Part shown: positions 39,512 through 62,564 of the stretch, one piece after another
Layout of the letters: each line of letters opens with the position of its first letter
Numbering within the stretch: position 1 is the stretch's first letter
DNA from: an uncultured Elusimicrobiales bacterium
GTDB lineage: Bacteria; Elusimicrobiota; Elusimicrobia; Elusimicrobiales; Elusimicrobiaceae
Length of the DNA: 64,000 bases
Direction of reading: 5' to 3'
Assembly: GCA_944327085.1 (NCBI GenBank)
Contig: CALVGG010000001.1
Location: forward strand, 62,001 to 126,000
Translations under genes and position numbers: made by a program
Notes under the pieces: model-generated
The model's database searches: none
The model's input: only the letters and a program-made list of their open reading frames with translations
Told to the model about the DNA's origin: nothing

Positions 39512-42500
39512 CTAAAACTGCACGGTAATATTGGCGGAAAAATTATACGCGTTATAATCTTCCGTAGCCACATAAGCGTGTTTTAAAATGGTGTAACCGC
39601 CGGCAATATTAAAGCGTAAATTTTGAGACATTTCATAATCCAGCGAAGTGGTAACATCATATTTTTTATAGTTATCGGTTACTTCCACAGGGGAAGATTT
39701 TTCCGTATAGCTTAAAACGGTATTCCAAATTACGCGGTTGGTGGCTTTATACATCCGGTCAATAAACGGCAGTTTAATACCGCGGGGGAGGTTAAAGTCC
39801 CAGCGGAGCGTCAGGCTGGGGGTGGTTTCCCGCGTGCTTTCGTTTAACTTTCCCACCAGCCATTTATCATGGGATGTATAAGTAATTTTAGGGGTCAGGC
39901 GCAGGGTGCCGATATAAAAAGAAGTCTGGGCGGAAAGGTCAATATCGTCGTAACGTTCCAGGTTGGTACCGGCGCGCAAGTCTTGCGTATCGGACGTTTT
40001 GCGGGTATAGTTAAACACGTTATCAAAATAATTAAACAATATAAAGCGCAAGTCCCCGCCGTATTGTGTTTCTAAACCGTCTTGGGAATTTTCGGTTGTT
40101 TGGGTAATTAAGCTGTAGCGCAATTTTAAGTTGGATGAACTTAACCAAGAACCGGCATAAAAGAATTTTTCCAAATCGCTGATGGAGAAAACCAAATCCG
40201 GCAAGGTTTGGCTTACGGAATCATACACCGTACCGGTTTGGTTATTGGTTTGGGTGGTGTAGCTGAAGTTATTAATTAAAGAAATGGTTTTTAACGGGGC
40301 CGCCATGCCGTTTAACTCGTATTTGGAAAACGGAGACCAGCGCTGAGACGAAGTGAACGTATCGCGCAACGTCATAGAGCTTAAATAACCGTAAGGCCCC
40401 ACATCCCCCATGGAGCCGCGAATCCACAACTCTTTGCGGGAATCAAAGCCGCTGTCCACATCGTTCCAAGTGTCGGCGTCCTGTATGCGGAAAGAATTGG
40501 AAATAACAAAAGTGTTAAACAGTTTGCTGTTGGGCAACAGTTCGTTACCGTTTAAGGTAAGCGATACGCCGCCGTCCGCATTGCGGTTGATGGATTTTAC
40601 CTCCCCTATGCCCACATCGGCACGTTGGCCGTTGGCGGTAATGGTTTTGGCCGTCAGGTTATTATTTTCTATGGTAGACACATTATAACTAAACGAAGGC
40701 GCCAGCCAGGAGGCCACCTTCCACGTGCTGGTAAAGCCGGTGCTTTGGTTCATGGCCTTAGGGTATTTAAAATTTTGCGCCTCATCGCCTTCGTAGCGAA
40801 GGCGTTCTTCGGTGCTTTTGGTAATATTGTAACTGGGCACAAAGTTAAAATTATTGGTGGGTTGATAGTTTACTTTTACGTTTAATTTTTGGGTGTCTTC
40901 GTCCGTATTATAATTATTGACGGACTGTTGATGCATTTCTTTGGCATAGTCTATTTTGGTATTGGTAAAATAATAACCCGCATTTACGCTTTTTAAGGTA
41001 TCGGTTTCGTGGCTGACGGTTACCCCGTAAGTATGCATATCATCTTTACGTTGCATCAGGTCATAGTCGGTCTGGTCCATGGTGTATTCCAGGCCCACTT
41101 TAGGCAAGTTTTCTTTTACAAAATCCCCGCGCACAACGGCACGTTCCCGCTCCACTTTGCCTTTATCCAAAAGGCTGATGGTATTATAATCCGTGCTGTC
41201 TTCAATGTTGGGGGTTACCACGGTGCTGCGCGTTAAGGTGGCCTCCATCGGGAATTCTTTTATTTTATCTACTTTTAAAAAGTATTCTTCTTCCGTCGTT
41301 TCCTGGTTTTTGGAAACGGTAAGCGGGGTTTGGAAGTTGCTGTCCTGATATTTGTATTTGGCGCCGGCACTGCCCCAGCCGTCCAATTTAACGGCTACGT
41401 TACCGGTATAAGCCTGCCCATACTGAATGACCGTTTCCGCCAAATGGATAACATTTAACCACACATGCCCGCCCTGCACGCCGGGGATGGGGCTGTCGTC
41501 CTTTTGCATACCGGCAATAATCAAACTTACTTTTTTAAAGTTCATCACTCCGCCCGGCACACGGTGGCGGGCCACGCGCACGTTGTATTCTTCTTTGGAG
41601 GCGTTTTCAAAAGAATCCGGTATGCCGTCCCCGTCCGTATCCACCATTTTTAAAGAAATTAAACGCCAGCCGTCAAACCCGGCAGGAACAATAACCTTAT
41701 CGTAATTATTTTCCGTACCCACTTTTAAGAAAAATTCAGATCCGGCGTTTGACTCTTCACTGTGAAGCAAAAAGCGAAACTCTTTATGTTGGGTAAAATC
41801 CATCGTGGAAAAGTTGCGGCTGGCGTACAATTCCCCCGCCGGGTGTTCATCGGTAGCGTCATCGGGCACCGGGCTGAGGCCCAAAGTATTAAATTCAATA
41901 TCCAGGGATTGGTCCTTGGCATTTACGGAATCCGTAGCTTCTTTTAAATTGCCGATAGAGCCGTACAAATAATTAAATACTTCCAGCCCGTCCCCGTGCA
42001 CATCATTAAAAATAGGCTCGTAGTTTGCATTATCCACGTTATTAATGCCGGTAACCAAAATACGCTTGTCCTCGTTATTTTCCATGGTGTTCCACGCCGT
42101 GCCGGACAAGCCTACATTGGCAATTTTTATTTGCCCTTTGTATTTACCGGTGGCGCGCATTTCATCGGTTAATTTTAAGGTAATACGCAAGTGGCGCACG
42201 GCCGTCCACTGGTCTTTTACATCTGCAATATCCAGGGGGGTTACAAAGGTTTGCCAGCCATCAAAATTAATGCGGTTGTTATCCCAGGTTACCTGGTCGT
42301 TATCGGCAATGGTACCGGCGCCGCCGGCAAAACCAAAGTTACCCAAAGCCGGTATGCTTTCATCATCAAATTGCCCGTTGGCGTTTAAATCCTGCGTATC
42401 AATGCGGCCGTTAGGTTGAGATTCTGGGTTATATACATTGTTTACAAACGGGTTATAGCGGTGGGTATTCCCGTCCGGGTCTTCATATTCCCAGCCGATG

Positions 42501-44971
42501 TCTTCGCTGGGGGCCAGGCTGTTGCGGCAGCGGACGTCTTCCGTCTTTGGTACGCCGACGCCGCATTGCGTATCCATGCCGTGGCCGCTGTCGGAATATT
42601 CGCTGATATTACCGAAGGTAACGTTTAACTGCGGGCCGTTGGTTTCCCCGCGCATAGTTAAATCAAACGAAGTTTTGGAAGACAAGTCTACACCGCTTAC
42701 GCTTAACGGATAAACGATAGACACCTCATCATATCCTTCATCCAAATAGCTTTTTCCGGTGGCGGCATCAATGGTGGTGGCGGCTTTGGTGAAATCGTAA
42801 TTAATAATTAAAACTTGCTGCTGGTCATTGTAATTACTGATGGAGTTGGGGTTAATTTCCAGGCTGGCTACGTCTTGCGTATCCCAGCCGATAGAACCCC
42901 AAAATGCGGATTTGCCGCTGGGGTTGGAGGCGATGACCCAGTCCCTGAATATTCTGGAGCCGCTGGTTTGCACGCTGGTGTCGTTCATACTGTCCACCAT
43001 GGCATAACCGAACTGGTTGGGGTTGTTGCGAGATTCCGCCACTTCCGCCCCGAAATCCACCGCCACTTTATCGGAAAGTTTAATGTCTTTACCGTTAATG
43101 TCTGCCCCGTATACCAACAAGTCTTTGCTGTAATTGCCCACCTGGGGGACGGTGGTGGGTTTATCGCCCGCTTCTTTTAAAACGGTGGTGCCCAGCTGGA
43201 TTTTATCCCAAAGTTTATAATCCAAACGCCCCCCCATTACAGACGTATTGGAATTGCTGCCCCCCACCGTATCGTAAGTGATGTTGATGACGGAAGAATC
43301 GGTAATTTCATCCCCTTTGTAAAAAGTGATGAAGCCGGAGGTATAGTCAATATAATAATCATTGTTGCGGGTAAGGGTTTTGCCGTTTAATTTAACGGTT
43401 TCAGACTCAACCACAATATTCGGCTCAATAAAATAGGTTTTAACCTTAGAAGTATACTCCACCTTAAAAGTACGGTTGTAGGAAGACACCGGGGTGGGAT
43501 TATAGAGCGTATTGTCCGCAAAGCGGCGCTCCAGGTAAAAGACGCCGTTGTCAAAATCCATAATAATATTGCTGGGGTAAGTGAGGGTTCCTCCGTCAGA
43601 AATAGGGAGAGATATTTCCTGCCCGGCCGCGTCCGTTACGCGCAGCAGGAAGTTGCCTTTTCCGTCGTCGCGCGTAATTTGCTGCGCACCCAAAGAATAG
43701 TAGGTTTTTAATTCCAGCTGGTAGGCTGTTTCATTGGCAGACCCTTCCACCGATTTTTCGTTTTCCGTTTTGATTAACTTAATATCGCCCTGGTTACCCA
43801 TTACCTGGCTTAAACGGTTGCCGGTGGTGCTTACATAGTCCACAGCAATAAAGCTTTCCGGCGTAATGGTGCGTTTAAACTGGATAATACCGCTTGCATA
43901 ATCCACTGTGTAATCCGTACCGCGGGTTAACAAACGCCAGTTGGAAGTGCGCCGGTATGTGCCGCCAAGCACGTCGGAAGCGGTTTTGGAAATAGGCACA
44001 AAGTCGTTATCTGTATTGTTGGCGTCCAAATAAATTTCTTCCGTGCCGGGGGAAATATTGCCCATAACAGAGCTCCACTGGCTGTAAGCATCCGTATAAA
44101 AACCGGTGGGAAGGCGGCCCTGCGTATCCTTTTTAATATTTCCGCCGAAAGTCAAATCGTAATAAGTGCGGCGTTTGTAGTCTGCGTCTGAAAGGCTTTT
44201 AATTTCCAACACACTGCTGCCCACAAATTGCTTTTGCTTGCTGGAACCTTTGGTTTGGGAACCGATTAAACGCAAGTTTAAATCTTTATACTGCAGGTGC
44301 ATCTGCGCACCAAACAGCTGCTTTTGGTAAGCGATAAACTCCGTTTCTGGCAAGGAAAGGTTAATATCGCCAAATTCGGCCAGTTGTACCAATTCTCCCG
44401 GTTTACCGCGGTATGCCACGGAAATGGTTTTTTCTTCTTCGCGTTGGTCGTCATAGTCAATATCCACAAAAACGCGGTCCAAAATTTTACCCTGCATTTT
44501 TAATTGCAGTTCCTGCACCATGCTGTTGGAGCTTACGTCCCTTTCTTCGGTGGTATTGTTATCGTCCACCTTGTATTTTTTTGCGTCCATTTTAAAACCC
44601 AGCACATAACGCCCCGTAAGCGCAATGCTGGTGCCGTATAAAGGCAGGGATAACGTGGGGTTTAAAAGGGTTAAGTCCGGTATGGGTTCGGGGTCTTTGT
44701 CCAGCTTATAGGCGCCCTCCACCGAGGTTACCGCCTGACGCCAGAACTCGTCGGAATATTTTAACAGTTGGGCATCGTCGGGCGGGTCTTCTACGGTCAG
44801 TTCCTTTTCCCGCTGGGCTTCTTGGTCTTCGGCAAAAATATCGTATTGGCTTTTGTCCACCAGGCTGTACGGCAAGTCCTCCGCCCTCAGGCCGGGCGGA
44901 AGTATTAATTGCGTGCACAAGACAAGGCACAGAAAGGTCCGGAGGATTTTCATGGGGGCAAAATACCTCAT
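39512..44971 (-). CDS. SprA/Sov-like giant outer-membrane protein (type IX secretion translocon family)
   Basis: 1819 residues. The signal peptide ends near LRAED; an ATG six codons later (44953) is a possible alternative start. The region around residues 195-245, FGDINLSLPETEFIAYQKQ followed by LFGAQMHLQYKDLNLRLIGSQTKG, matches the SprA N-terminal pattern in which plug repeats precede the barrel. The remainder is rich in amphipathic beta-strands, with jelly-roll-like insertions at about 700-1150. The C-terminal sixth has RWDFNLPRGIKLPFIDRMY and ends in NITVQF, a terminal aromatic. SprA forms the 36-strand exit channel of type IX secretion in Bacteroidota. No other T9SS gene is in the window. 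Family call is by pattern recognition. Confidence 0.6.
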   Translation of the reverse strand: MRYFAPMKILRTFLCLVLCTQLILPPGLRAEDLPYSLVDKSQYDIFAEDQEAQREKELTVEDPPDDAQLLKYSDEFWRQAVTSVEGAYKLDKDPEPIPDLTLLNPTLSLPLYGTSIALTGRYVLGFKMDAKKYKVDDNNTTEERDVSSNSMVQELQLKMQGKILDRVFVDIDYDDQREEEKTISVAYRGKPGELVQLAEFGDINLSLPETEFIAYQKQLFGAQMHLQYKDLNLRLIGSQTKGSSKQKQFVGSSVLEIKSLSDADYKRRTYYDLTFGGNIKKDTQGRLPTGFYTDAYSQWSSVMGNISPGTEEIYLDANNTDNDFVPISKTASDVLGGTYRRTSNWRLLTRGTDYTVDYASGIIQFKRTITPESFIAVDYVSTTGNRLSQVMGNQGDIKLIKTENEKSVEGSANETAYQLELKTYYSLGAQQITRDDGKGNFLLRVTDAAGQEISLPISDGGTLTYPSNIIMDFDNGVFYLERRFADNTLYNPTPVSSYNRTFKVEYTSKVKTYFIEPNIVVESETVKLNGKTLTRNNDYYIDYTSGFITFYKGDEITDSSVINITYDTVGGSNSNTSVMGGRLDYKLWDKIQLGTTVLKEAGDKPTTVPQVGNYSKDLLVYGADINGKDIKLSDKVAVDFGAEVAESRNNPNQFGYAMVDSMNDTSVQTSGSRIFRDWVIASNPSGKSAFWGSIGWDTQDVASLEINPNSISNYNDQQQVLIINYDFTKAATTIDAATGKSYLDEGYDEVSIVYPLSVSGVDLSSKTSFDLTMRGETNGPQLNVTFGNISEYSDSGHGMDTQCGVGVPKTEDVRCRNSLAPSEDIGWEYEDPDGNTHRYNPFVNNVYNPESQPNGRIDTQDLNANGQFDDESIPALGNFGFAGGAGTIADNDQVTWDNNRINFDGWQTFVTPLDIADVKDQWTAVRHLRITLKLTDEMRATGKYKGQIKIANVGLSGTAWNTMENNEDKRILVTGINNVDNANYEPIFNDVHGDGLEVFNYLYGSIGNLKEATDSVNAKDQSLDIEFNTLGLSPVPDDATDEHPAGELYASRNFSTMDFTQHKEFRFLLHSEESNAGSEFFLKVGTENNYDKVIVPAGFDGWRLISLKMVDTDGDGIPDSFENASKEEYNVRVARHRVPGGVMNFKKVSLIIAGMQKDDSPIPGVQGGHVWLNVIHLAETVIQYGQAYTGNVAVKLDGWGSAGAKYKYQDSNFQTPLTVSKNQETTEEEYFLKVDKIKEFPMEATLTRSTVVTPNIEDSTDYNTISLLDKGKVERERAVVRGDFVKENLPKVGLEYTMDQTDYDLMQRKDDMHTYGVTVSHETDTLKSVNAGYYFTNTKIDYAKEMHQQSVNNYNTDEDTQKLNVKVNYQPTNNFNFVPSYNITKSTEERLRYEGDEAQNFKYPKAMNQSTGFTSTWKVASWLAPSFSYNVSTIENNNLTAKTITANGQRADVGIGEVKSINRNADGGVSLTLNGNELLPNSKLFNTFVISNSFRIQDADTWNDVDSGFDSRKELWIRGSMGDVGPYGYLSSMTLRDTFTSSQRWSPFSKYELNGMAAPLKTISLINNFSYTTQTNNQTGTVYDSVSQTLPDLVFSISDLEKFFYAGSWLSSSNLKLRYSLITQTTENSQDGLETQYGGDLRFILFNYFDNVFNYTRKTSDTQDLRAGTNLERYDDIDLSAQTSFYIGTLRLTPKITYTSHDKWLVGKLNESTRETTPSLTLRWDFNLPRGIKLPFIDRMYKATNRVIWNTVLSYTEKSSPVEVTDNYKKYDVTTSLDYEMSQNLRFNIAGGYTILKHAYVATEDYNAYNFSANITVQF

Positions 44972-45023: not shown

Positions 45024-45045
45024 ATCCCCCGGTTACAGGGGGTTT
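45024..45045 (-). terminator. Weak terminator after the protease operon
   Basis: AAATCCCCC / GGGGGTTT hairpin in the 83-base gap before the SprA-like gene. On the minus strand it is followed only by ATTTCT, so readthrough is likely. Confidence 0.45.
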
Positions 45046-45054
45046 AAAAAGCGG

Positions 45055-46125
45055 TTAGCGCACTTCGTACACTTCCAGGCGCACTTCCTGCACGCCCTGT
45101 TGTAAAAATAAAAATATTTTATCGCCTGTCTGGGCGGGAATAACCTGTTCCAGCCGCAAATAATTAAACGTGCCCGGATAATGTTTAAAATCCCGGCTGA
45201 AAACGGTTTTTCCGTCTCGGTGCACTTCCACCAGGCCTACATTTTCGGTAATATTAATATCCGCAATTTTAACCCCTTTAAAAACAAGCGGTTTCAGTAC
45301 GCGCCCGCCGTTTTGCATGGCGGTAAATAAATCGTCTATAGCGGCCTTGGCATTTACGGCAAACCCCAGCTTGCCCTTAAAACTGCCGCTGTGTATGCCC
45401 ACCACTTCTCCCTGGGAATTTAACAAAGGCCCGCCGCAGGCGCCGTTCCCGCGGCCTTCCGGCGGCAGGGTGGTAATAATTTTATAGCCGCATACGTCCA
45501 GTATGTGTCTGTTGGCGTTTTTGCTGTAATCTTTGGGCCAAAAATTAGGGTCCGGAAAGCCAAAAGAATCCACAAACGTATTTTTTTCAGGCCCTTGCCG
45601 GGAAATAACCAGCGGCCGGACATGGTCTTTTACTTCAGGAGGGAGCTCCACCAGCGCCGCATCCGCCCCGTTAAACCCGTACGAGCCGGAAACTTTTACC
45701 ACGCCCCAATAATACACCGGGGTAGCATCCGGCAAATAAAAACGCATTTTTAACCGGTTACCCGCACGCCCGGAAATATGATAAGGCACCACGCCCCAAA
45801 TTTTTCCGTCCCGCTCAAACACAAAACCGGAAGAGCGGGTGGAACCGTCCAGCGGCATAATGACCTGAAAGATAGACTGGCGGATATGGCGCTCCACCTC
45901 ACGCCAGCGGCTTTCAAAAGCGGCAGCCAGCAACCGGCGTTCCATTTGGCGTGCGGCATTTTGCGCCCCTGCCAAAGCCTTTTGGCCGGCAGATTGCAAC
46001 GCAGTTTTGGAGCTTGATTTTTGCACCGCGTTTTGTAAGCCTTTCACCAAGCTTTTGCCGTTTTGGGCAGAGGCCGAAACATTTCCGCACAGTAAAAAAA
46101 CCAATACACAGCAAAGATTTTTCAC
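45055..46125 (-). CDS. Secreted trypsin-fold protease with Cys nucleophile, member 4 of tandem array
   Basis: 356 residues. Signal peptide (CCVLVFLLCGNVSASA), then a basic, Ala/Gln-rich stretch to about 75, then a chymotrypsin-like double barrel. Proposed triad: His116 (VVPYHISG), Asp155 (NGADAALVELP) and Cys230 (GNGACGGPLLNSQGEVVGIHSGS). In the trypsin_2/S1 family the last residue would be Ser. The Cys codon is TGC and unambiguous. The C-terminal 85 residues form a domain shared with the three upstream proteins. Starts 3 bases after the previous gene. Substrate unknown; an inactive or non-protease role cannot be ruled out. Confidence 0.75.
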   Translation of the reverse strand: MKNLCCVLVFLLCGNVSASAQNGKSLVKGLQNAVQKSSSKTALQSAGQKALAGAQNAARQMERRLLAAAFESRWREVERHIRQSIFQVIMPLDGSTRSSGFVFERDGKIWGVVPYHISGRAGNRLKMRFYLPDATPVYYWGVVKVSGSYGFNGADAALVELPPEVKDHVRPLVISRQGPEKNTFVDSFGFPDPNFWPKDYSKNANRHILDVCGYKIITTLPPEGRGNGACGGPLLNSQGEVVGIHSGSFKGKLGFAVNAKAAIDDLFTAMQNGGRVLKPLVFKGVKIADINITENVGLVEVHRDGKTVFSRDFKHYPGTFNYLRLEQVIPAQTGDKIFLFLQQGVQEVRLEVYEVR

Positions 46126-46128
46126 TTG

Positions 46129-47178
46129 TTAATCTCCCACCCGGTATTCTATTACGCCGGCTATGCGCCCGCGCTCCACGATTTCAAAAATAATCACGTC
46201 TCCCTTTTGAATGCGCCCGGTGCGAAAAACATTCTCCGCCCGTGCGTAAGTAAAAGGCGCCCTGAAATAATCCATATCCACCCGTTCCAGCAGGCGGCCG
46301 GCGCGCTCCAAAGAAATACTGCCGATGCTTTGAAAAGGCTCTATTTCAAATAGGGTTTTGCCCAAAATTTTTACGGGCTGCGCCGCGTGCCCAAAGTAAA
46401 ACACACGCAACAGCTCCTTTATCCCGGCGGCGGAAACGGCAAAAGTTTGTTTGCCTTTTTCACTCCCGCAGTGCATACCCAGCACATACCCGCTGGAGCT
46501 GATAACAGGCGCCCCGCAAAAACCGCTGGGGGCGGGCGGAAGCTGATAATCCCCGCTTAATTTAAAACCGGTCGTATCAGTTATCCGGCGGGCATATACC
46601 CCGGGGATAACGTCCTCTTTCAACGCGCACATATAACCATAACCTTGGGCCACTTCCCCCACCCGGGCGCCTTTGTCGGACAGGCGCAACGCAAAAACTT
46701 TTTCCGCCAGTTCCTCCGGCAGTTTAATTAAAGAAACGTCCAAGCTGTTTATACCCCATCCGCCACCCTGGTTAACCGTAAAATGCTGAACGGACGAATT
46801 GCCTTTCCCGTCAAAAAAGCGCAAATACACTTCCGCCCCGGCACTGCCGCTGGTGTGGTAAGGAACGGCCGCCCAAACAGTGCGTTTGCCTTTAAAAAAT
46901 TCTTCAAAAATAAAACCGGAGGAATGGAAGCCGCCTTCCCCCACGTTTACAACCTGTACCAATGCCCGGCGGATATTGGCTTGCACCAGTGCCGCATTAT
47001 AAGGGTGTTTAAGCAGCAAGGCCCGGTAACCCTGTTGGCGGGCCTGCACGGCGCGGCGTACCCCGTTTTTTAATATTTTTTGTATTTTTCCGGCTAAAAC
47101 CTGCGGGGTTTTGGAAACCTGCCCCCACCCCATAACCGGCAAACAGCTAATCAAAAATAATGTAAGCAAATGTTTCAT
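46129..47178 (-). CDS. Secreted trypsin-fold protease with Cys nucleophile, member 3
   Basis: 349 residues with a signal peptide (LLTLFLISCLPVMGWGQ) and a basic N-terminal segment. Proposed triad His108 (AAVPYHTSG), Asp147 (NSLDVSLIKLP) and Cys221 (PSGFCGAPVISSSGYVLGMHCGS). It deviates most from the others: the oxyanion motif is GFCGAP and the C-terminal domain is shorter in its conserved core. The ATG overlaps the stop of member 2 (ATGA), evidence for one polycistronic mRNA. Confidence 0.72.
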   Translation of the reverse strand: MKHLLTLFLISCLPVMGWGQVSKTPQVLAGKIQKILKNGVRRAVQARQQGYRALLLKHPYNAALVQANIRRALVQVVNVGEGGFHSSGFIFEEFFKGKRTVWAAVPYHTSGSAGAEVYLRFFDGKGNSSVQHFTVNQGGGWGINSLDVSLIKLPEELAEKVFALRLSDKGARVGEVAQGYGYMCALKEDVIPGVYARRITDTTGFKLSGDYQLPPAPSGFCGAPVISSSGYVLGMHCGSEKGKQTFAVSAAGIKELLRVFYFGHAAQPVKILGKTLFEIEPFQSIGSISLERAGRLLERVDMDYFRAPFTYARAENVFRTGRIQKGDVIIFEIVERGRIAGVIEYRVGD

Positions 47179-48299
47179 TTTTCAGGCACCGTGTAGGTAA
47201 TAAAATCACGCTGGTCTTTGCCGTCCGTTGTAATGCGCAGGCGGAGCTGATCCCCGGGGTGCAAAGCAGGCAAAACCCGCTCCAGGCGGGTATAATCCAC
47301 CGGTTGTGGGTGCAGGGTAACGCAAACTTCCGTCAGTTTTTCCCCATTGCGGAAAATTTCCACATCACTCACCCGCTGGGTTAAAGATAAGCTAAGCACT
47401 TTCTGCCCGTTTACGCGCACCTCCCTTACCAAAGAAGGCTTGCCTTCCATTTGGTTAAATAAAAATTGGGATACGCGGGCAAAATCCAACACATAACTAT
47501 ATTTGCCAAAATTACTGCCTATATGCAGCCCCACTACCTTGCCGTTTTTAATTACCGGGCTGCCGCAGGCACCCTGGGCGTAGCCGTCTTTTTTGCCAAA
47601 ATTATAAGTGGAGCGAAACTGCCAGTCATTTACCGCAATTACACGGCGGCCGGCCGTTTTAATTAATTTAGCTCCTATCCACGGGCCGTGGTAACCGTAT
47701 GAATCTACCTTGTCCCACTTGCGTACCGGTTTGGCAGCTACTTGCAGCGGGCGAATATACTTAAGGGCCCACGCAGGCACTTCCATCAGCACCATATCCG
47801 GGTTGTGCAACCCCACGGAACCGCGTGCACGCACAATAAAAAACGCAGGCAGGTATTCTCCATCCCCAATATAAAAACGCACCGGCACTTTCTGGCCGAT
47901 TTGCTTGGTTAAATGCCCGGCGGCTGCAGCCCATATTTGGCCGGAACCGTCCGGCCGAATAAAAACAAAACCGGTGCCTAAAGGCATTTTGTCTGCATCC
48001 AAAATTTGAAAGACACTGTAATGAATATTTTTTTCAAAACTTTCCTGCAAGGCTTTCTTTTTTTGCCAGGCGGCACGCAAACCCAACAATTTGTAAAGTC
48101 CTTCCGTGGCGGCATCCTTAGCGGGAACCTGAGATATCTTTTCCACCATGCCGGCTGAAGCGTGGCGCTTCTGCGGCTGGGAATTTTCCACCGCATTAAA
48201 TACTTTTTTCCACAATTTGCCTGACTTGGGCTGCGCCGCCGCCCCCTGCCACAACAACAAGGCCATCATCAAAACCGCCAACTTGCGCATATGCCGCAT
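47175..48299 (-). CDS. Secreted trypsin-fold protease with Cys nucleophile, member 2
   Basis: 374 residues, signal peptide (LAVLMMALLLWQGAAAQ). Proposed triad His129 (WAAAAGHLTK), Asp168 (HNPDMVLMEVP) and Cys245 (YAQGACGSPVIKNGKVVGLHIGS). The C-terminal domain with VEIFRNGEKL and VDYTRLERVLPALHPGDQLRLRI is shared with its neighbours. It starts 9 bases after member 1. The longest linker between signal peptide and protease domain of the four. Confidence 0.73.
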   Translation of the reverse strand: MRHMRKLAVLMMALLLWQGAAAQPKSGKLWKKVFNAVENSQPQKRHASAGMVEKISQVPAKDAATEGLYKLLGLRAAWQKKKALQESFEKNIHYSVFQILDADKMPLGTGFVFIRPDGSGQIWAAAAGHLTKQIGQKVPVRFYIGDGEYLPAFFIVRARGSVGLHNPDMVLMEVPAWALKYIRPLQVAAKPVRKWDKVDSYGYHGPWIGAKLIKTAGRRVIAVNDWQFRSTYNFGKKDGYAQGACGSPVIKNGKVVGLHIGSNFGKYSYVLDFARVSQFLFNQMEGKPSLVREVRVNGQKVLSLSLTQRVSDVEIFRNGEKLTEVCVTLHPQPVDYTRLERVLPALHPGDQLRLRITTDGKDQRDFITYTVPEK

Positions 48300-48308
48300 A
48301 AATTCTCC

Positions 48309-49415
48309 TTACTTTACAACAAACTCCAAGGTTTCCGTTTCCATAAAACGTTGGTCTTTTAACTCAATATATATTTTATCGCCTCGGCGGGCCTGCGGAA
48401 CAAGCTGTTCTAAGGAGCCGTAATCAAAAGGTTTTTCTCTTTTAGTTAACAAAACAGAATCAATCGTGCGCCCATCTCTTTTTACTTCCACGCGGCTAAT
48501 GCGTTGGGAAGCCGTTAAACGGCAGATTTCCCGCCCATTCCACACCACGGGGCGCAGCAGCTGTTTATCCCCATGTACGTCAGCCAGCATGGCCCGCACG
48601 GGGCCGGGGGCCGCCACCGCAAAACTGCAGCTGGCGCTGGTGTTGCTGCCGCTGTGTATGCCCACCACTTCTCCCTTTTCGTTTAATAAAGGGCCGCCGC
48701 AAGCGCCGCTTGGATTATGCTTGCCAAAAGGATAGGAAGTAGTAATACGGCTGTTATCTACAGACTCAATCACCCGGCCGGTGTTTTGCTTGGGGGAGCC
48801 GGCAAATTCGGCATTGGGGTTTAAAGAATAAAAACCGAAAGAGGAAACCAGGTCTCCCTTGTTGGGGTTTTCCTGCGCCAAGCGCAGGGCAAAAACTTCG
48901 TCCTGCATTTCCGGCGGGACCAAGGCCAAAGAAAAATCATAATTTTGATAACCTGCACTGCCGTAAGCCATTACCCGCAACGCCTGGCGGGATACGGTTC
49001 CGTCCGCCTTGATATATTCCGCTATAAAAAAGGGGCTCTCGTCCACTAAAGCATGCGCCGGGATAACGGCCCACACCAACCGTTTGCCCATATAATACTC
49101 TTCCATAAAAAATCCGCTGGCCTGCACCGCGGGCGTATACATAAAAAACACCGCACTTTTTATTTTTTCCTGCACCAAAGCGGCACTATAAACCGCCGCT
49201 TCTTTGGGGGCCGCGCGTTTAGCCCCTGCTATGGCGGCCGCACGGGCACGCAACACTGCCGTGCGGGCGGCGTTTTCTGCCCGAGCTGAGGCTTTTTGAG
49301 CTATGCGCTGCACCGCCTTTTTAGGCAGGCGCTGGCCCAGGGCCACAGGGTTTAACAAACAAACCACGCCCAACACCACTGCCATTATTTGCACGGCCTT
49401 CCTATTCAGTTTCAT
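48309..49415 (-). CDS. Secreted trypsin-fold protease with Cys nucleophile, member 1 (operon leader)
   Basis: 368 residues, signal peptide (IMAVVLGVVCLLNPVALGQ), then a 50-residue Ala/Arg/Lys-rich segment. Proposed triad His121 (VIPAHALVDES), Asp160 (NYDFSLALVPPEM) and Cys239 (PSGACGGPLLNEKGEVVGIHSGS). H-D spacing is 39 residues, as in all four members. The shared C-terminal domain has RVEVKRDGRTI and FDYGSLEQLVPQARRGDKIYIEL. The promoter directly upstream is of the leaderless type. A non-proteolytic role is possible, but the intact triad argues for activity. Confidence 0.75.
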   Translation of the reverse strand: MKLNRKAVQIMAVVLGVVCLLNPVALGQRLPKKAVQRIAQKASARAENAARTAVLRARAAAIAGAKRAAPKEAAVYSAALVQEKIKSAVFFMYTPAVQASGFFMEEYYMGKRLVWAVIPAHALVDESPFFIAEYIKADGTVSRQALRVMAYGSAGYQNYDFSLALVPPEMQDEVFALRLAQENPNKGDLVSSFGFYSLNPNAEFAGSPKQNTGRVIESVDNSRITTSYPFGKHNPSGACGGPLLNEKGEVVGIHSGSNTSASCSFAVAAPGPVRAMLADVHGDKQLLRPVVWNGREICRLTASQRISRVEVKRDGRTIDSVLLTKREKPFDYGSLEQLVPQARRGDKIYIELKDQRFMETETLEFVVK

Positions 49416-61872: not shown

Positions 61873-62564
61873 AAATTTATTCCGACCCGCGCCTGCTCTC
61901 TTTAGGCATTGTCCACGGCACTGTTTCCCGCCAGGCGGGAAACATGCGCGAGCGCGCCAACCAAGACGCCCTTTTTAAACAATTAAACATCCCTACGGAT
62001 AAAATACTCCGTCTCCACCAAGTGCACAGCGCAGACCTGGTAACTATTTTAAACGAACAAGCCGCCCAAGCCCAGCAGGCCCAAAACCCGCTTACCCAGG
62101 CGGACGGGTGGATTATCAGCCCCCAAGGCTGGGGTGCCAGCGTGCTGACGGCGGACTGTGTGCCCCTGTTTTTATGGGACGAAACCGCCCATTTAACCGC
62201 CCTGGTGCACGCCGGCTGGCGCGGGGTGGCGCAAGGGCTGCCCCAAAAAACCGCCCGCCAAATGCGCCAACTGGGCGCCCAAGGCAAAATTTGCGCTTAC
62301 CTGGGGCCGCATATACAAAAATGCTGTTTTGAAGTACAGGAAGACACCGCCTGCCAGTTTGACGCGGGGTGCGTCATCCGCCAAAACGGCAAAATATTTG
62401 TGGACTTAACCCAAGACATTATCCGCCAGCTTTCCTTAGAAGGCGTAAAGGAACAAGACGTATACGCCCCCCAATGGTGCACCTGCGGCAATAAAGAGCA
62501 GTTCTTTTCCTACCGGCGGGACCACCAACGCGACGTGCAAATTTCCTTTATCTACAAACCCTAA
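61869..62564 (+). CDS. pgeF: Peptidoglycan editing factor PgeF (YfiH/laccase-domain family)
   Basis: 231 residues. Cys/His metal-site motifs of the family: RLHQVHSAD, VLTADCVPLFLW, LVHAGWRGVAQGL, YLGPHIQKCCFEV and a C-terminal CTCGNKEQFFSYRRD. Members have been described as removing wrongly added L-Ser from UDP-MurNAc, and as purine nucleoside phosphorylase/adenosine deaminases. The murI overlap favours the cell-wall role here (inference). Confidence 0.9.
   Translation: MKIYSDPRLLSLGIVHGTVSRQAGNMRERANQDALFKQLNIPTDKILRLHQVHSADLVTILNEQAAQAQQAQNPLTQADGWIISPQGWGASVLTADCVPLFLWDETAHLTALVHAGWRGVAQGLPQKTARQMRQLGAQGKICAYLGPHIQKCCFEVQEDTACQFDAGCVIRQNGKIFVDLTQDIIRQLSLEGVKEQDVYAPQWCTCGNKEQFFSYRRDHQRDVQISFIYKP

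Follow-up and report, generated by a model that had tools for sequence, protein, structure and literature searches.

In a structural survey of the PA clan, whose members adopt the chymotrypsin fold, the nine cysteine families are those of positive-strand RNA viruses, while the bacterial members belong to serine families (PMC6524800). The closest described bacterial systems are two kinds of secreted protease from Staphylococcus aureus, the V8 glutamyl endopeptidase and the Spl enzymes (MEROPS S1B), and the HtrA/Deg proteases (S1C); on the viral side stand picornain 3C and the potyvirus NIa protease (families C3 and C4; PA subclan C). Other bacterial thiol proteases, such as the MARTX cysteine protease domain and further members of families C80, C10 and C25, are secreted too, but have unrelated folds. 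The present analysis concerns an operon of four genes in a stretch of 64,000 nucleotides (the window; positions 62,001 to 126,000 of contig CALVGG010000001.1, assembly GCA_944327085.1) from an uncultured Elusimicrobiales bacterium of the Elusimicrobiaceae, whose genome comprises 1.67 Mb in 12 contigs (G000). The operon probably encodes lineage-specific, exported PA-clan endopeptidases, in which the catalytic Ser was replaced early by a Cys that would act together with His and Asp. Bacterial PA-clan cysteine proteases are likely to be new: none of subclan C was found in the literature searched, which included neither subscription journals nor the current MEROPS list.

The window proteins resemble the V8 and Spl proteases in fold, order of catalytic residues, the GxH motif of the S1 pocket and secretion, and the Spl proteases likewise form a tandem paralogous set. 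In contrast to these serine enzymes, they carry Cys as the nucleophile, lack Thr/Ser190, and possess an additional C-terminal domain and a helical N-terminal segment. The HtrA/Deg proteases provide the top structural match over the protease domain and have the export signal in common, but use Ser and carry PDZ domains, whereas the window proteins gave no PDZ match and their C-terminal domain has no counterpart among solved folds. With picornain 3C and NIa, the window proteins have the Cys nucleophile, the fold, the GxCG motif and the S1 His in common; the viral enzymes, however, are intracellular processors of polyproteins, while the window family is exported, bacterial and closer in sequence to bacterial serine proteases.

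Catalytic positions and predicted fold of the window proteins

An earlier note, made from the letters of this DNA, had described an operon at 45055-49415 for four tandem secreted proteins, each with His, Asp and Cys at the catalytic positions. All four open reading frames (ORFs) are present at this place, on the minus strand, and every residue number given for the three positions was correct (Table 1). The Asp follows the His by 39 residues in all four proteins, and the Cys follows the Asp by 79, 77, 74 and 75 residues, within the previously noted range of 74-79. Each protein begins with a hydrophobic stretch whose last two residues are GQ or AQ (ALGQ, AAAQ, GWGQ and ASAQ), a start that, judged from the sequence and not by a trained signal-peptide predictor, is typical of exported proteins. 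The nucleophile codon is TGC in all four genes. A GxH motif, absent from the earlier note, is located 14-15 residues past the Cys in each of the four proteins.

The product of gene 1 was modelled by AlphaFold2 using a 97-sequence family alignment, which yielded a confident two-barrel structure (mean predicted local distance difference test score, pLDDT, 90.1; predicted template-modelling score 0.81). The best solved matches in Foldseek were Deg8, DegQ and DegS (E 5e-12 to 1e-9, with probability 1.00 to Deg/HtrA), and the viral matches included NIa and astrovirus proteases. Template-modelling scores were ∼0.4 over the whole chain, owing to N- and C-terminal parts without a good counterpart, and up to ∼0.7 over the target for protease-only chains. 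Compared with solved structures, the family profile matched the V8 glutamyl endopeptidase (2e-8), Deg2 (2e-8 to 4e-8) and SplB (2e-7). In these alignments the catalytic positions coincide, namely with H, D and S in Deg2 and with D and S in V8. The chymotrypsin double barrel predicted by the earlier note is supported by the model and its structural matches, and in the profile alignments H, D and C fall opposite the triad residues H, D and S of the Deg and V8 proteases. Its proposed likeness to viral 3C proteases holds for the chemistry (a Cys nucleophile) but not for the sequence: the nearest relatives are bacterial serine proteases, and the best score of the four window proteins against PF00548 (picornain 3C), 16.8 bits, did not reach the gathering cut-off of 22. 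The proteins would work like a 3C-type protease, yet are kin to bacterial serine proteases.

Against PF13365 (Trypsin_2; cut-off 27.6 bits), gene 1 scored 27.6 bits with neighbours, gene 4 24.6 and gene 3 16.8, gene 2 being unlisted, while several paralogues exceeded the gathering cut-off. The C-terminal beta domain of gene 1 had no significant match among solved folds (best E 0.2 in Foldseek; nothing below E 0.24 for the profile versus PDB). Its identification as a PDZ domain was rejected, since no Pfam PDZ match was obtained in the window proteins and the model lacks a significant solved match. Kinship to the RT-Protease XI defence proteins was likewise rejected: the PADLOC model matches the family weakly (3.5e-7), and its protease half matches proteins throughout the phylum, HtrA-like ones included, indicating generic protease similarity.

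Conservation of the triad and variation of the S1 pocket

Searches for the family covered the phylum Elusimicrobiota, and phage, plasmid and viral contigs were scanned as well. Whole-genome searches placed G000 in a family (f1) of ∼90 genomes, within which strong relatives of the window proteases occur in two genera, that of G000 (g1) and one other (g2). With gene 1 as a single-sequence query, which reaches close relatives only, a relative with 61% identity was detected in a metagenome-assembled genome designated "uncultured Elusimicrobiales bacterium". The host genome encodes 13 family members in four clusters, and all 13 bear the GxCG motif, so that the Cys pattern lies far beyond chance. 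Among the 30 same-genus genomes that are at least 90% complete (G000 included), members occur in 21, with 0-13 per genome; one further same-genus genome was matched solely through its Ser-type homologue.

Across the genus, the nucleophile position is occupied by Cys in 102 of 103 unique full-length members, by Ala in one and by Ser in none, and in the 96 members found by motif search the Cys codon was TGC in 89 and TGT in 7. A comparison of Ser and Cys homologues had been proposed in the earlier note; in a larger set of non-identical sequences, a few rows of which may be cut pieces of giant proteins, Cys was present in ∼160 of the 161 members in which the catalytic His is retained, the exception being Ala, and again Ser was not encountered. 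His, Asp and Cys are retained together in ∼150 diverse members, and the nucleophile forms the sole conserved Cys column of the mature protein (Cys in 96 and Ala in one of 97 aligned full-length members). When the four window genes were compared with their orthologues in genome G013, the ratio of non-synonymous to synonymous substitution (dN/dS) was 0.12-0.18, values that are rough because synonymous changes are near saturation but that indicate purifying selection on the orthologues. The protease clusters also hold their genomic place between genomes. Family-wide fixation, purifying selection and conserved operons together bear out the view that the Cys is selected and not a product of random decay.

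Downstream of a two-gene protease cluster in G000 is the gene for an exported-looking protein of 282 residues without a protease domain (L015:10270-11118), which G013 and G058 also retain at the equivalent places (cluster c18). The nucleophile was lost in five members of the family. In three genomes, D-N-x-Y replaces the triad in proteins (L157:1411-2643, L168:1040-2383 and L172:1366-2835) that are likely conserved pseudoproteases, and a member of the Asn/Glu subfamily with Ala as the nucleophile residue (L089:7359-8549) is probably inactive.

The residue 15 places past the Cys is His in 71% of the family, Phe in 10%, Tyr in 8%, Glu in 6% and Val or Ile in a few members. An S1 His is the element for P1 Glu or Gln that glutamyl endopeptidases and 3C proteases have in common (PMC5508998), and S1 His213 of the glutamyl endopeptidases is matched in all four window proteins. 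Members with this His would prefer Glu or Gln at P1, a prediction of moderate confidence, while the occurrence of Phe, Tyr, Glu or Val/Ile suggests other preferences and hence several specificities within the family. In the tree, the Glu type, in which the triad Asp is changed to Asn, and the main Phe type constitute orthologous groups present in several genomes. The tolerance of Asn for Asp in this one subfamily fits what is known of viral Cys enzymes, among which the third triad residue varies and a His-Cys dyad is sometimes used instead (PMC6524800).

Several observations weigh against the proposed endopeptidase function and specificity. The Pfam scores of single window proteins lie at or under the gathering cut-offs. 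Thr/Ser190 (chymotrypsin numbering) is absent, the residues five places before the Cys being N, Y, A and R in the window proteins, and position 190 is not conserved across the family; the prediction for P1 is therefore moderate at best. Moreover, a small group of paralogues has lost the triad, so that not every branch of the family is necessarily enzymatic.

Of the alternatives, that of pseudoproteases, in which peptidase activity was lost with the Ser-to-Cys change and which now serve as ligand binders or decoys, would account for the genuine pseudoenzymes in the family (three related D-N-x-Y proteins, one QDWR and one HNAE), and the protease activity of the other members is one that we infer. 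It is nevertheless unlikely, given the joint retention of the triad over so diverse a membership and the loss of other catalytic positions in four of the five members without the nucleophile. In addition, the S1 residue varies among orthologous groups while the Cys stays fixed, as expected of enzymes that change specificity. A Cys enzyme that acts chiefly as a transpeptidase or acyl transferase on surface proteins, via a thioester intermediate, would suit exported proteins, and in other families a thiol nucleophile makes transfer to amines more favourable. However, no sequence signal points to such a reaction and the S1 motif resembles that of proteases hydrolysing after Glu or Gln, which renders this second alternative highly improbable.

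The family is real, selected and unusual: in this bacterial lineage, proteases of the chymotrypsin fold have Cys fixed as the nucleophile, with putative thiol catalysis. As exported endopeptidases, its members would be synthesized with an export signal, an N-terminal helical segment rich in Ala and Lys that may be a propeptide, the two-barrel domain and the small C-terminal beta domain. The Cys would act as the nucleophile in proteolysis, assisted by His and by Asp or, in one subfamily, by Asn. Kinship suggests a gut habitat for the G000 lineage, and the enzymes may participate in the breakdown of host, dietary or microbial proteins by these anaerobic gut bacteria, where reducing conditions would keep the thiol active.

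Origin of the cysteine nucleophile and the giant proteins

Ordinary Ser homologues (SSSGSP and GNSGGG) are also encoded in G000, and Cys is therefore not a genome-wide habit. In trees from which the columns of the nucleophile and the S1 residue were excluded, one to three changes are required to account for the Cys and Ser sequences, and 68% of the bootstrap trees fit a single one. As judged from the sequences, the origin is a bacterial switch from Ser to Cys, which would have taken place early in family history, and not the capture of a viral 3C protease. Acquisition from the 3C or 3C-like protease of a positive-strand RNA virus is scarcely credible: the GxCGG and GxH motifs in common, the weak scores for Pfam Peptidase_C3 and the viral proteases among the Foldseek matches are set against a profile that ranks the bacterial V8, Spl and Deg proteases first (E 2e-8) and has no Cys-type viral protease in its best 60 matches (the viral ones are Ser-type nsp4, 2e-5), solved-structure matches headed by Deg/HtrA, giant proteins of the same bacterial family that contain both Cys and Ser versions, and the lack of any relative in the phage records, plasmids and viral contigs scanned, on which a phage, plasmid or viral-contig origin was rejected as well.

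If the bacterial switch is correct, the change from Ser to Cys also arose and persisted in cells, with ∼160 members, large paralogue expansions and a Ser-type relative in the same genome. The family would then provide a naturally occurring case in which to study the route and the cause of this switch, a long-standing question, and may be a source of exported proteases with differing P1 specificities.

In Elusimicrobium-type genomes (genera g2 and g5), related domains are found inside giant multi-domain proteins. One of these, in a g2 genome (G078, L123:1757-13660), is encoded by an open frame of 3,968 residues, in which an export signal and transporter-like segments are combined with four protease domains, one of them lacking the Cys. 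Another (G079, L100:2490-19691) comprises 5,734 residues and five Cys domains, and in G077 a single open frame holds one Cys domain and one Ser domain. It is conceivable, though doubtful, that the giant proteins are bacterial polyproteins which, in the manner of RNA viruses, process themselves into separate functional parts by means of their 3C-like domains. The self-processing of MARTX toxins provides a possible parallel.

Further giant proteins with related Cys-protease domains are encoded at L098 (G078) and L104 (G297), the overall size range being 3,451-5,734 residues, and some of the Cys domains adjoin transporter-like membrane segments or PMBR-like repeats. In a sister genus (G086), an open frame of 3,667 residues (L105:7311-18311) matches a major facilitator superfamily (MFS) transporter, Zeta toxin, Kdo/WaaP kinase, AvrB/AvrC and a Ser-type trypsin domain, and may encode a multi-effector-like giant.

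Organization and neighbourhood of the operon

The four protease ORFs are separated by 9, -4 and 3 bases, the last 4 bases of gene 2 being shared with gene 3, and therefore look like a single operon (Table 1). The hairpin beyond gene 4 suggests that the transcript ends ahead of the following gene.

Table 1. Features of the protease operon; positions are those of the window.
Feature	Position	Strand	Remarks
Gene 1, exported PA-fold Cys protease (predicted), 368 aa	48309..49415	-	H121/D160/C239, S1 His254, GACGGP; modelled member (pLDDT 90)
Gene 1, catalytic double beta-barrel domain, residues ~88-280	48576..49154	-	AlphaFold2 secondary structure, Foldseek, profile to V8/Deg
Gene 1, nucleophile Cys239 codon TGC in GACGGP	48699..48701	-	Family column C in 96/97
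Gene 1, C-terminal beta domain, ~83 aa	48312..48560	-	AlphaFold2 pLDDT 93.6
Gene 2, 374 aa	47175..48299	-	H129/D168/C245, S1 His259; GACGSP; Cys codon 47565-47567
Gene 3, 349 aa	46129..47178	-	H108/D147/C221 (GFCGAP), S1 His236; Cys codon 46516-46518
Gene 4, 356 aa, GTG start	45055..46125	-	H116/D155/C230, S1 His245; GACGGP; Cys codon 45436-45438
Terminator-like hairpin directly 3' of gene 4	45026..45041	-	Consensus match only

Upstream of the operon are divergent LptF and LptG genes, and downstream, past the hairpin, is the gene for a 1,819-residue SprA-like protein (39512-44971; TIGR04189, 120 bits, below the NCBIfam cut-off of 200). The order LptG-LptF, four proteases, SprA-like protein is conserved in G013, while G075 contains a similar operon without gene 3 (three of the four proteases). 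A link of the proteases to type IX secretion through the SprA-like neighbour was rejected: no Por secretion tail family was detected in the genome, the terminator-like hairpin intervenes, and the protease/SprA-like gene order recurs in just one other genome. A scan of the genome for GldL gave no match, yet neither did its control. The SprA/Sov-like outer-membrane protein, in a genome without a detected Por secretion tail, is possibly an SprA relative outside the type IX system.
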